A DNA stretch of 64,000 bases from NCBI GenBank assembly GCA_017546025.1, contig JAFYYS010000027.1, positions 1 to 64,000 on the forward strand, given 5' to 3'. A program made the translations under genes and the position numbers. Below the pieces are notes generated by a model. That model worked only from the letters and a program-made list of their open reading frames with translations. It had not been told where the DNA came from and did not search any database. Shown piece after piece: positions 102 to 22,240 of this stretch; position 1 is the stretch's first letter, and every line of letters begins with the position of its first letter. Source of the stretch: Lachnospiraceae bacterium. GTDB lineage: Bacteria > Bacillota > Clostridia > Lachnospirales > Lachnospiraceae.

Positions 102-146
102 GTCGTTTTTGGGGGTGCATGGAACTATTTGAAGGGGTTTGGCGGG

Positions 147-483
147 TTAGTACCACATGGCGGGGGCTATGTGGTACTATTCTCAGTTTTTTTATGGGGT
201 TAGTACCACGTGGCGGGGGCTATGTGGTACTATTCTCAGTTTTTTTATGGGGTTGGTACCACGTGGCGGGGGCCGCGTGGTACGGGAAATGGTTTTTACA
301 AGCTTTAGTACCACGGCGCACCGGATTGATGGAACTAATGGTAAGATTCTGGCCGCTTTAGTACCACGGCGCACCGGATTGATGGAACTAATGGTAAGAT
401 TCCGGTCGCTTTAGTACCACGGCGCACCGGATTGATGGAACTAATGGTAAGATTCTGGTCGCTTTAGTACCACGGCGCACCGG
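147..483. repeat. array of seven 53-bp dyad repeats
   Basis: Units begin at 147, 200, 253, 305, 358, 411 and 464 (spacing 53, 53, 52, 53, 53, 53); the last is cut at about 483. Every unit starts TTAGTACCAC (TTGG in unit 3). Units 1-2 form a perfect dyad AGTACCACAT (149-158) / ATGTGGTACT (169-178) and are almost identical to each other. Units 4-6 keep the left arm but carry a different body whose right arm is TGGAACTAA, complementary to the left arm with one mismatch. Unit 3 is a transition. Short open frames across the array have no ribosome site and shift frame from unit to unit, since 53 is not a multiple of three. Function unknown. Confidence 0.9.
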
Positions 484-19100: not shown

Positions 19101-19321
19101 AGACGATGCGTAAGGACGCTGACTTTGAGGTTATGGATCACATCACCCTTGCCCTTGCCGGCAACGACAAGATCGCCGAAATCTGCAAGCGCAACGAAGC
19201 CTTCATCAAGAAGACCGTTCTCGCTGACGAGATGCTGTTCGAAGCCCTCGGCGCCGACGCCGTTTCCAAGGACTGGAACCTGAACGGCGAAGACGTCACG
19301 ATTTGGGTGAAGAGGAAGTAA
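16130..19321 (+). CDS. ileS: isoleucyl-tRNA synthetase
   Basis: Charges tRNA-Ile. The 1063 residues include the class I signatures HIGH (55-58) and KMSKS (613-617), with the CP1 editing domain in between and a long C-terminal anticodon-binding region. The length and segments such as NRYWGTPLNIWEC followed by a zinc-like CGHxxC agree with the type 2 (eukaryote-like) IleRS, whose members are typically less sensitive to mupirocin; this is inferred from family knowledge. The start at 16130 follows AGGAGG; the longer frame from 16058 starts inside the T-box terminator. A 1030-codon antisense frame here is a codon-bias shadow. Confidence 0.95.
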   Translation: MYQKVDANMDFVGREKETLKFWQDNDIFKKSMESRKEGPTYTFYDGPPTANGKPHIGHVLTRVIKDMIPRYRTMKGFMVPRKAGWDTHGLPVEIEVEKLLGINGKDQIESYGLEPFIDKCKESVWKYKGMWEDFSGTVGFWADMDNPYVTYHDDYIESEWWALRQIWDKGLLYKGFKIVPYCPRCGTPLSSAEVSQGYKTVKERSAVVRFKAVGEDAYFLAWTTTPWTLPSNVALCVNPSDTYVKVKAADGYTYYLAQALADTVLAPLSKDGAAAYEVIETFKGTDLERREYEPLYQCAADEAKKQGKKAFYVTCDDYVTMSDGTGIVHIAPAFGEDDANVGRNYDLPLVQMVNEKGVMLDVTPFAGMRCKPTAAEMEKGAISADPEVIKDLSSRKLLFDAPKFEHEYPHCWRCDTPLIYYARESWYIRETAVRDDLVRNNNTVNWIPESIGKGRFGNWLENIQDWAISRNRYWGTPLNIWECECGHRECIGSRAELAERSGNPDDAKVELHRPYIDGVTFVCPDCGKTMHRVPEVIDCWFDSGAMPFAQHHYPFENKDLFEAQFPAQFISEAVDQTRGWFHSLMAESTLLFNKAPYENVIVLGHVQDENGQKMSKSKGNAVDPFEALATHGADAIRWYFYINSAPWLPNRFHDKAVTEGQRKFMGTLWNTYAFFVLYANIDNFDATKYTLDYDKLPVMDRWLLSRLETTVKTVDDHLWNYRIPEAARALDSFVDEMSNWYVRRGRERFWAKGMEQDKINAYMTLYTALVTIAKTAAPMIPFMSEAIYRNLVCSIDATAPESVHLCDYPTVEESWIDTDLEKNMEEVLDIVVLGRACRNASNIKQRQPMSEMYVKNDLALNEFYKEIIEDELNVKEVTFREDVSEFTGYTFKPQLRTLGKRFGAKINAVKEALLALDSAKAMAELNATGSVTITVDGADEQISKDDLLIEAKKVEGYVSDSDGKVTVVMNTTLTPELIEEGYVREVISKVQTMRKDADFEVMDHITLALAGNDKIAEICKRNEAFIKKTVLADEMLFEALGADAVSKDWNLNGEDVTIWVKRK

Positions 19322-19367
19322 GCTTTTTTGTTGAATTCTCTTGTGTTTTCACGTTGAATCTTCAATT

Positions 19368-19396
19368 ATTCCCGCGGGGCGATGCCCCGCGGGAAT
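19368..19396. terminator. perfect GC-rich hairpin after ileS
   Basis: ATTCCCGCGGGGC / GCCCCGCGGGAAT, 13 bp with a 3-base loop. It is followed by a T-rich but interrupted tract (CTTTTCT), so it is a probable terminator, usable from either side. Confidence 0.65.
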
Positions 19397-19440
19397 GAAT
19401 CTTTTCTAAAGCCCCGTGCTTTCTATTGATTTCTTGCCGG

Positions 19441-19900
19441 ATTACTACAAAAGTGCCGGTTTTCAGCTTGGCTTGTAGTAAAACCCCGTTAATCCTTTTG
19501 TTATCAAACTTGATATTCTGCGAATTACTACATGATTGTCTTCTTTGAGGCTACTTTGTAGTAAATCTTTTCCGTTTCTTGATGCTAACAAACTTCATAT
19601 TTCTTGAATTACTACAGAAACATCCGTTTTGAAGATGCTTTGTAGTAAAACCCTCTTGTCTCTGGCCGAAACACAAACTTGATGCTTCACGGATTACTAC
19701 AGTTTTGCAACTTTTGCGTTGAGATTGTAGTAAAGGCCGGTTTTTCAAAAGTTTATGCCAACACTGAAGAACGGTCTTTACTACATTTGAATTCATTCCT
19801 GCCAAACTCAGTAGTAATTCTCCCCGAACCGTTTTTCAAGAAACTTTGGCGCTGAGCCCTTTACTACACTAACGTGTTTTCTGTGCTCAAAGTGGAGTAA
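19441..19900. repeat. array of six inverted-repeat units, about 84-bp period
   Basis: Left arms TTACTACA start at 19442, 19525, 19609, 19694, 19778 and 19861 (spacing 83, 84, 85, 84, 83). Each is followed after 22-26 bases by a right arm TGTAGTAA (perfect in units 1-4, GTAGTAA in 5, AGTGGAGTAA pairing with TTACTACACT in 6). The bases between arms and between units vary in sequence but hardly in length. Several loops contain a second short stem of different sequence: GTCT/AGGC, CATC/GATG, CAAC/GTTG, TTTG/CAAA in units 2-5. No gene fits here; the array ends about 115 bp before the putative nuclease gene. Neither a CRISPR nor a terminator series explains it. Confidence 0.9.
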
Positions 19901-20016
19901 TTCTCGGCAAACGAGTCGAAATAGCTTTACTTGCTCAAATCAAAGAGCAACGCATTCTAACATTCTCAACCCTTCTAAACAAATTCTATAAATTTCTATC
20001 TTCGGAGGACAATCTA

Positions 20017-20820
20017 ATGAATCTGAATCTGTACGAACTCCTTAACCAAGAAAAGAAAACGGCCGAGCGTCTGATGCATCGTGCCGAAAAAGAAATGAAG
20101 CGCATGCCCGGCGGAACGCTTGAAGCCAGACTGACCAAAGGCAAATATCCTCAATATGTCCACACTTCTTCTGTAAACGGCAAACGGGTGTCGAAGTATA
20201 TTTCCAAAAAGAATCTGAAGCTTGCCCGGCAGTTGGCACAACGGGATTACGACCGTGACCTGATGAGAGCAGCCGCGCAACTGACGGAGGCTTTGGAGAC
20301 GGCGTCAAATGCAATCAGAGAATATGATTTGGAAGCAATATACCAAAAAGAGAAGAGTATCCGCCGAAACCTTATCACACCCCTCATCCCAACCGACGAA
20401 ATGTTTATCGAGCAGTGGTATGAGGAGCATCATGGGGCGCAGAATTCGCTGCCGATGACAAATTCGTACACAACCATTCGCGGCGAAACGGTCCGCTCGA
20501 AGTCTGAGAAGATGATTGCGGATGCGTATCATATGGCGGGGATTCCGTATGTTTATGAGCCGTCCGTCTGCCTCGCGAACGGGCACGGCCGGAGGCCTGA
20601 CTTCGCAGTATTAAATGTCAGGCTGCGGAAGACTATGTACCATGAGCACTTCGGCATGATGGACGATGACGAGTACCGCCAGCACGCCATCCTCAAGATG
20701 CGGGAGTACAACCGCAGCGGGTACCGCGCCGGCGAGGTGATGCTTTACACCTTTGAGGGAGAGGGGATTCCGTTCGATCAGGATGAGCTTGATGAGCTGA
20801 TTCGTGCATTTCTGATGTGA
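20017..20820 (+). CDS. putative PD-(D/E)XK nuclease of unknown role
   Basis: A 267-residue cytoplasmic protein. Residues 1-30 are helical; 31-80 (GGTLEARLTKGKYPQYV, then NGKRVSKYISKKNLKLA) look like a small basic beta-hairpin plus helix nucleic-acid-binding module. Residues 155-267 fit a PD-(D/E)XK fold: SKSE (161-164), YE (180-181), RRPDF with Asp195, then YHEHFGMMDD (Glu210) and Lys227. The EHFGMMDD..Y pattern occurs in many uncharacterised Firmicutes proteins, recalled from memory. Start after CGGAGGAC. It stands alone, preceded by the inverted-repeat array and followed by an unrelated amidase gene. Whether it cuts DNA or RNA, and whether it acts on the array, is unknown. Confidence 0.65.
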   Translation: MNLNLYELLNQEKKTAERLMHRAEKEMKRMPGGTLEARLTKGKYPQYVHTSSVNGKRVSKYISKKNLKLARQLAQRDYDRDLMRAAAQLTEALETASNAIREYDLEAIYQKEKSIRRNLITPLIPTDEMFIEQWYEEHHGAQNSLPMTNSYTTIRGETVRSKSEKMIADAYHMAGIPYVYEPSVCLANGHGRRPDFAVLNVRLRKTMYHEHFGMMDDDEYRQHAILKMREYNRSGYRAGEVMLYTFEGEGIPFDQDELDELIRAFLM

Positions 20821-22093: not shown

Positions 22094-22240
22094 GCCACCG
22101 CCCCGCCGGGCAGGTGACAACAGTAAACCTTAGCCACCGCCCCGCCGGGCAGGTGACAACAGTAAACCTTAGCCACCGCCCCGTCGGGCAGGTGACAACA
22201 GTAAACCTTAGCCACCGCCCCGCCGGGCAGGTGACAACAC
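22094..22240. repeat. 39-bp tandem repeats, 3.8 copies
   Basis: Units begin at 22094, 22133, 22172 and 22211, nearly identical (one C/T change in unit 3). Each holds GCCACCGCCCCGCCGGGC followed by AGGTGACAACAGTAAAC, with a CACC...GGTG imperfect stem. As 39 is a multiple of three the frame stays open and makes a false extension of the next gene. Confidence 0.9.

Follow-up and report, generated by a model that had tools for sequence, protein, structure and literature searches.

The closest described systems to the one reported here are the repetitive extragenic palindromic (REP) sequences and bacterial interspersed mosaic elements (BIMEs) with their REP-associated tyrosine transposases (RAYTs, or TnpA-REP; the pair is called a REPtron). 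The portions of the published accounts on which we draw describe alternating palindromic extragenic repeats with a dedicated nuclease gene, vertical inheritance, and co-evolution (PMC2817692, PMC8266576, PMC8049555). As far as those portions go, several REP/RAYT pairs can share one genome, in which REPs usually number >100 copies (PMC2817692), a GTAG/CGTC-type tag adjoins the REP palindrome (PMC3733652), and the benefit of RAYTs to the host is still open (PMC8049555). Here we describe an array of inverted repeats and the adjoining gene for a 267-residue protein, P0001, in a 64,000-nucleotide stretch of DNA from a Lachnospiraceae bacterium (the window: contig JAFYYS010000027.1, positions 1 to 64,000, forward strand, assembly GCA_017546025.1). 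There is good support for a pairing of P0001 family members with helically phased arrays. We think it probable, with less assurance, that P0001 is a sequence-specific PD-(D/E)XK nuclease that acts on its own phased arrays, co-evolves with them, and drives their evolution.

An array of dyads beside a nuclease-like gene

Six dyads of the form TTACTACA-N24-TGTAGTAA lie at 19442-19900, starting at 19442, 19525, 19609, 19694, 19778, and 19861, at spacings of 83, 84, 85, 84, and 83 bp; in all six, the right arm starts 32 bp after the left. A reading of the window made from the letters alone (the sequence-only reading) had described twelve 8-base half-sites that alternate in orientation with a period of 83 to 85 bp, and this was borne out: ten are exact and two (AGTAGTAA and TGGAGTAA) have one mismatch each. 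Counting both strands, TTACTACA occurs 11 times in the window, against 0.59 expected and a maximum of 3 in 100 shuffles, and 10 of these 11 occurrences fall within 19442-19868. The features of the locus are as follows.

19442..19481, no strand: dyad 1, TTACTACA-N24-TGTAGTAA (from the sequence)
19525..19564, no strand: dyad 2, exact arms (from the sequence)
19609..19648, no strand: dyad 3, exact arms (from the sequence)
19694..19733, no strand: dyad 4, exact arms (from the sequence)
19778..19817, no strand: dyad 5, right arm with one mismatch, AGTAGTAA (mismatch search)
19861..19900, no strand: dyad 6, right arm with one mismatch, TGGAGTAA (mismatch search)
20004..20009, forward strand: GGAGGA, ribosome-binding site ahead of the ATG of the nuclease gene (by eye)
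20017..20820, forward strand: gene of the 267-residue array-associated PD-(D/E)XK protein P0001 (open reading frame, profiles, model)
20116..20202, forward strand: codons 34-62, predicted three-stranded sheet (34-40, 44-53, 56-62), the proposed half-site reader (AF2 models, half-site covariation)
20464..20814, forward strand: codons 150-266, PD-(D/E)XK domain (profiles, structure matches, conservation)

The names ileS, amidase, ruvA, atpC, purN, folC, panB, Fic, and NUDIX, here and below, were read by eye from translations. A perfect 13-nucleotide inverted repeat (I3, 19368-19396), terminator-like by eye, follows the gene read as ileS, so the array probably starts past the end of the ileS transcript. 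In the draft genome to which the window belongs (98.7% complete), a dyad with a 24-base loop and at most three mismatches occurs in ten places, namely, the six array dyads (0 or 1 mismatch) and four dyads with three mismatches; the same search with a reversed control pattern gave 21 places.

The C-terminal half of P0001 matches the PADLOC nuclease profiles PDC-S68 (2.9e-21) and HEAT_CxxC_PD-DEXK (1.5e-5), the PDC-S68 match being confined to the last ~120 residues of profiles of ~1200 residues. Pfam gave no match for P0001, and a scan of 31 family members against it gave one stray MerR match at 0.006 and nothing else. An AlphaFold (AF2) model of P0001, built from 75 sequences, had a mean predicted local distance difference test score (pLDDT) of 96.5, and its C-terminal part resembles PD-(D/E)XK nucleases, as the sequence-only reading had suspected; the matches are weak (best Foldseek E value, 2.8e-3). 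E164, P194-D195, and H211 are invariant in the 75 sequences, and E210 is conserved in at least 90%. By profiles, model, and conservation, P0001 has the core fold and the acidic active-site residues of the PD-(D/E)XK superfamily. K227 is nearly invariant as well; from the alignment, it is possibly a migrated catalytic lysine that could substitute for the canonical one, and the segment from the E-H-x-G motif to K227 spans residues 210-227 (window 20644-20697). The gene had been called a lone PD-(D/E)XK-like nuclease gene, of which the domain stands and "lone" is incomplete, as the draft genome contains seven members, the other six at 30 to 35% identity to P0001.

P0001 belongs to a large family. 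At least one match was found in 15 of the 22 genus genomes, with up to seven per genome, and in 111 of 298 family genomes at E <= 0.001 (109 of 293 among those of good quality). Twenty-one of the 111 match more weakly than 1e-15, maybe through the nuclease domain alone, which leaves 90, or strong matches in about 30% of the sampled family genomes (90/298, count read from the table). A scan of named genomes gave at least 579 relatives, and the best 80 of these are nearly all from Lachnospiraceae (Butyrivibrio, Pseudobutyrivibrio, Oribacterium, Lachnospira, and rumen metagenome-assembled genomes [MAGs]) or from Clostridiales/Eubacteriales MAGs. Two loci among the best 80 (L101 and L122) come from one rumen Treponema MAG and have irregular upstream repeats; they reflect either transfer between phyla or a binning error. 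Across the phylum, 15 of 398 genomes matched at E <= 1e-10. Five are of the same family and encode full-length members; in the other ten, no match begins before profile position 98, and the open frames are 199 to 1269 residues long, so the N-terminal part looks family-restricted at that sensitivity, and the nuclease domain is wider. A search of the open-access literature, which has clear limits, turned up no paper on this nuclease family or its arrays, and what we describe is apparently a large, undescribed gut-bacterial nuclease gene family.

Arrays beside family members and away from them

For 144 loci, the 1.5 kb to either side was scored for arrays by means of the best 8-base seed forming inverted pairs, with no more than one mismatch allowed in an arm. 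Nine loci were dropped as duplicates, leaving 135, and another 20 because less than 1 kb was available upstream, leaving 115 distinct genes; loci L045 to L048 agree in array and identity with the genes of genomes G020, G010, G018, and G009. Upstream, at least three dyads were found for 83 genes, at least four for 63, at least five for 47, and at least six for 35. Distant flanks reached three dyads in 2 of 60 cases and four in none of 60, and dinucleotide shuffles did so in 6 and 1 of 230, respectively. Downstream flanks had at least three dyads in 30 of 129 cases and at least four in 15 of 129; counting either side, 69 of the 115 genes have at least four. Arrays beside homologues, looked for as the sequence-only reading had advised, are thus present at more than half of the genes tested (63/115 with at least four upstream dyads). 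A few of the counted arrays are irregular or of low complexity (e.g., L086, L101, L122, and L147), and the largest has up to 16 dyads (L127).

Each gene tends to its own half-site. In the draft genome, a clear array accompanies six of the seven genes, no two of these sharing a half-site (TTACTACA; TATGACTGC; TACGGACT; GCGCATACC; CCTACGRAA; and GTTCCAA, which lies downstream of the gene on C32), and the seventh (C8) has loosely related sites only. More widely, half-sites differ between subfamilies and recur among close relatives (e.g., L093/L105, L109/L116, and L125/L031). The upstream 1.5 kb of L038 holds a nine-dyad, 63-bp array beside a homologue with an in-frame stop, and an array may therefore outlast its gene for a while.

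The position of the arrays bears on one alternative, in which the nuclease has another job and the dyads are phased operators for self-repression via oligomerization and DNA looping. It would account for the excess of arrays of at least four dyads upstream over downstream, for the distance from the last arm to the start codon (median, 93 bp; quartiles, 59 and 204 bp), and for the finding of no other TTACTACA sites in the draft genome. Against this, some arrays are downstream of the gene (L003, L096, L098, L150, and L032) or on both sides of it with the same half-site (L031, L110, and L123), 16 dyads exceed what an operator needs, and there are gene-less arrays away from homologues. We regard pure autoregulation as unlikely.

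One gene-less array lies within the window.

120..480, no strand: gene-less array with a 52-53 bp period, whose half-site, TAGTWCCAA, also makes up the array beside the C32 paralogue (dyad searches)

It is situated at the start of the contig, ahead of a Fic-like gene, and is of the same kind of system; it is not the array of P0001. Further TAGTWCCAA arrays of 52 to 53 bp are found in the draft genome on C14, C32 (135.9-136.1 kb), C1, and C18. All lie off the seven homologues found, the nearest being about 17 kb away, on C32, and the array downstream of the C32 gene is built of nearly the same half-site. The C14 array, ahead of ruvA, is present in 2 of the 22 genus genomes, the draft genome and its nearest relative by RuvA, G017; it was not detected in the other 20, one of which offers just 508 bp of upstream sequence, a pattern suggestive of gain. 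No homologue at E <= 0.001 was found in G017 (79% complete).

A second half-site, TTACCACT, behaves similarly in Pseudobutyrivibrio. Exact dyads number 36 in G711, 24 in G716, 10 in G713, and 2 in G712, with none in G714 and G715, and a reversed control gave 0 to 1. G711, G716, and G713 each have one homologue directly adjoining a TTACCACT array, and further dyads are on contigs without a listed homologue or >25 kb from one. At orthologous gene-less spots, G711 and G713 have 14 versus 1 dyads at purN (L252/L259), 6 versus 1 at panB (L250/L258), and 4 versus 6 at folC (L251/L257). In G711, the purN array starts within 5 bp of a stop codon, as do the folC arrays. Since dispersal is seen for TAGTWCCAA and TTACCACT and not for TTACTACA or the TATGACT half-site of the C25 paralogue, it belongs to some subfamilies.

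Such strong variation in unit number at orthologous spots is also what ordinary tandem repeats display, and array and gene might be functionally unlinked, the array being tandem-repeat noise or a decayed mobile element. That reading is hardly credible given the association with one gene family, the helical phasing and sheet/half-site covariation described below, and the conservation of the units, in which (63 arrays; the choice of seed favors the arms) arms are 94% identical from unit to unit, loops 60%, and gaps 58%.

Helical phasing and covariation of gene and half-site

Distances between successive dyads in arrays of at least four dyads fall into narrow clusters. Between 40 and 115 bp, they are concentrated at 52-54 (193 distances), 62-64 (52), 73-75 (37), and 84-86 bp (34), i.e., 5, 6, 7, and 8 helical turns, with few in the gaps at 55-61 (3), 65-72 (4), 76-82 (2), and 87-93 bp (2); the remainder are at 43-51 (7), 83 (4), 94 (2), and 103-108 bp (11). 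When one modal period per array was used (n = 72) and periods of 8 to 14 bp were scanned in steps of 0.25, the highest Rayleigh R was 0.826, at 10.5 bp (phase 0.19); the arrays share ancestry, and the nominal P value is not to be taken literally. Within arrays, too, spacing jumps by about one turn: L095 has 94, 94, 84, 84, 84, 84, 84; L053 goes from 63 to 74, L099 from 62 to 53, and L111 has 74, 85, 85. Downstream arrays have periods of 53 (L003 and L096), 63 (L120 and L150), 74 (L110), and 93 to 95 bp (L032). Whole-turn spacing fits proteins on one face of double-stranded DNA, and RNA hairpins need no such spacing; together with loops and gaps of free sequence, it argues for recognition as double-stranded DNA rather than as RNA hairpins.

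This bears directly on a reading in which transcription of the array yields hairpins for the protein to bind or process, in the manner of a type III toxin-antitoxin system, where tandem repeats stand directly upstream of a nuclease gene. In its favor, besides that layout, four of the six dyads at this locus fold as closed hairpins (-10.8 to -13.7 kcal/mol). The compensatory inner stems claimed for the loops did not hold up, as in this array 12 to 100% of shuffled loops do no worse than the real one. In the wider set of arrays, whole loops have a slight folding advantage over shuffles (P = 0.0027, n = 63; P = 0.0036, n = 61). Trimming 3 or 4 nucleotides beside each arm removes this excess (P = 0.11, n = 54; P = 0.37, n = 47), which is probably due to arms that extend past 8 bases. 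Rfam gave no match near gathering score in 19300-20050, and arrays also occur downstream of genes and without genes. The structured-RNA option of the sequence-only reading is accordingly very improbable, given spacing at whole turns of B-DNA and trimmed loops without excess folding.

Gene and half-site evolve as a pair while the gene stays at one locus. The order ileS-array-gene-amidase is found in nine of the 22 genus genomes (the draft genome, G002, G009, G010, G011, G015, G018, G020, and G021). Eight of these loci have at least three detected dyads; G020 scores 2, and by eye its array is degenerate, with an 84-bp period and TTCCAATGGTTT. Spacing at the nine is mostly 83 to 86 bp, or about multiples of this where units are missing. 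The half-site is of at least five kinds: TTACTACA in the draft genome, GCGGTG-type in G010, G011, and G018, CTGTTG-type in G021 and G002, TTTCAATG in G015, GTGCTACT in G009, and CCAATGG-type in G020. Ten other loci with a clear ileS and no intact gene have at most two dyads behind ileS (G013 was judged on 122 bp only); G006 has a gene remnant there, and in G005 ileS is followed straight by the amidase, with no gene. A decayed mobile element, one of the options first raised, is not supported here, as nine genomes keep the gene at the same locus, eight of them with at least three dyads, the in-frame stop in the G010 copy and the degenerate G020 array notwithstanding. As to features of insertion sequences or transposons, the gene keeps its ileS-amidase position in 9 of 22 genomes, and the gene-less ruvA array is in 2 of 22.

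The fixed position, between genes read by eye as ileS and amidase, likewise counts against an anti-phage or abortive system, in which the array would be a self-marker, decoy, or DNA antitoxin, whose loss, or occupation by an invader, would free the nuclease to cut DNA. Several pairs per genome and fast-changing specificity would fit such a conflict, and in PADLOC the nuclease domain is closest to the candidate defense proteins PDC-S68 and HEAT_CxxC_PD-DEXK; as noted, the PDC-S68 match is restricted to the last tenth or so of the profile. We consider a defense role improbable.

Covariation was analyzed for 69 loci, comprising arrays of at least four dyads and hand-named three-dyad arrays of P0001 orthologues; the irregular L059, L086, L101, L102, L112, L122, and L147 and translations outside 230 to 330 residues were left out. 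Alignment A1 contained 31 of 34 proteins, without L019 and L038 (in-frame stop) and L032 (odd start), A2 contained P0001 and 74 of 79 proteins (L071 has no start), and A3 contained the P0001 segment and 48 of 74 segments. Half-site similarity correlated with identity of the N-terminal domain in a Mantel test (r = 0.24; 0 of 2000 permutations as high; 69 loci). Among related pairs, the columns that track half-site similarity are 34, 38, 40, 46, 48, 50, and 59 and, outside the N-terminal domain, 100, 212, and 216. Residues of the predicted strands track it better than others (0 of 2000 label permutations at each of the identity thresholds 0.40, 0.45, and 0.50), and at every one of these thresholds residues 38, 40, 48, and 50 rank among the ten best. 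The best strand positions alternate, which suggests, on the model, one face of the sheet.

A repeat-nuclease pair like RAYT and REP, and a set of binding sites for the nuclease, had been among the options of the sequence-only reading. Both agree with the evidence: arrays accompany homologues, half-sites covary with the protein, and some half-sites other than TTACTACA are dispersed.

A 39-bp tandem repeat (22094-22239; 3.7 copies, 98% match) lies between the amidase-like and NUDIX-like genes of the window. Its period is no whole number of helical turns.

Proposed mechanism and comparison with known systems

For binding, cleavage, array amplification and break-driven dynamics, autoregulation, and role, we propose the following. 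The N-terminal three-stranded sheet would read a half-site of 8 to 10 bp in double-stranded DNA, and two subunits would occupy the two arms of one dyad. Recurrence of half-sites at whole turns would place the subunits on one DNA face and allow assembly along the array, and the nuclease domain would nick or cut the DNA held in the assembly. Repair of the break may then expand, shrink, and homogenize the array, with protein and half-site drifting together, and in some subfamilies may seed gene-less arrays at new intergenic spots. An occupied array close to the promoter may, in addition, keep the gene's expression in check.

Several points weigh against this proposal. Replication slippage, which needs no nuclease, can also alter the unit number of tandem arrays. 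The canonical lysine of (D/E)-x-K is not conserved (the motif is E210-H211-x-G, with position 212 variable), so nuclease activity is not certain. Structure matches are modest, no Foldseek match of the model having E < 0.001. Half-site similarity correlates with identity of the C-terminal domain (r = 0.27) alongside that of the N-terminal domain, and the broader N-versus-C contrast is weak, being equaled in 56 and 17 of 300 permutations. The loci surveyed are the best-scoring relatives and no random sample. Of the 115 genes, 32 have fewer than three upstream dyads by this detector. Modal periods of 48, 49, 61, and 103 bp occur in 5 of 72 arrays, the downstream array of L086 has a 45-bp spacing, and the G010 gene, one of the nine at the ileS locus, has one in-frame stop. 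Dispersal is not general: no TTACTACA dyads with two or fewer mismatches were found elsewhere in the draft genome, and TATGACT dyads were found only beside their own gene.

With these points in mind, we suggest tentatively, and at somewhat less than an even chance, that the family represents a new class of system. In it, a PD-(D/E)XK protein with an unrecognized three-stranded DNA-reading module would maintain, homogenize, and in some subfamilies disperse phased palindrome arrays, with several protein/half-site pairs per chromosome and with the half-site changing while the gene stays put. The observation leads to something larger than the sequence-only reading had proposed. If the suggested class is real, it would be an independent invention of the arrangement of repeats plus a dedicated nuclease, which we know only from REP/RAYT, and would give a function to a large gene family that has no Pfam family of its own among the 31 members scanned. 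Helical phasing predicts a specific nucleoprotein assembly, and the pairing offers dozens of natural protein/half-site pairs for the DNA recognition code of a compact sheet module.

Other systems share single features with this one. The antitoxin repeats of type III (ToxIN-type) toxin-antitoxin systems were considered and rejected, as loops are unconserved between units (60%) and show no excess folding after trimming; arrays here are phased to B-DNA and are also found downstream of a gene or by themselves, and PD-(D/E)XK nucleases are what the model resembles. Structure matches listed for the P0001 model include no ToxN, CptN, or TenpN toxin, which excludes nothing. A CRISPR array, with its identical direct repeats and unique spacers, was likewise rejected on repeat features, because the conserved parts are 8-bp inverted arms and both loops and gaps are related between units (60% and 58%, 63 arrays). 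Phased operators and iterons of plasmid replication and partition are helix-phased repeats bound by the product of a neighboring gene; here, orientation alternates, the product is a nuclease instead of an initiator or partition protein, and there are several pairs per genome. PDC-S68 and HEAT_CxxC_PD-DEXK have a related C-terminal PD-(D/E)XK domain, in the case of PDC-S68 in profiles of about 1200 residues. Unlike TnsA of Tn7, Bax1, VRR-NUC, XisH, and Hjc, P0001 has no transposase or helicase partner recognized by eye beside its gene; terminal repeats were not looked for.

Membership of the REP/RAYT class fails, as P0001 has no match to an HuH tyrosine transposase (no Pfam match at all) and its fold matches PD-(D/E)XK. 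RAYT is an HuH (IS200/IS605-type) enzyme that acts on single-stranded REP, whereas the dyads here have spacers of free sequence and whole-turn spacing, with one to about six arrays per half-site. By eye, the list of consensus half-sites has no common GTAG/CGTC-type tag (no systematic test was made). Dispersed copies, a REP feature, are absent for TTACTACA and the C25 half-site and present for TAGTWCCAA and TTACCACT. REP/BIME with RAYT is nevertheless the closest working analogue, probably not a homologous one: in both, regularly spaced palindromes alternate beside a vertically inherited nuclease gene, here in some subfamilies also away from it, repeat and enzyme evolve together, and several pairs share one genome.

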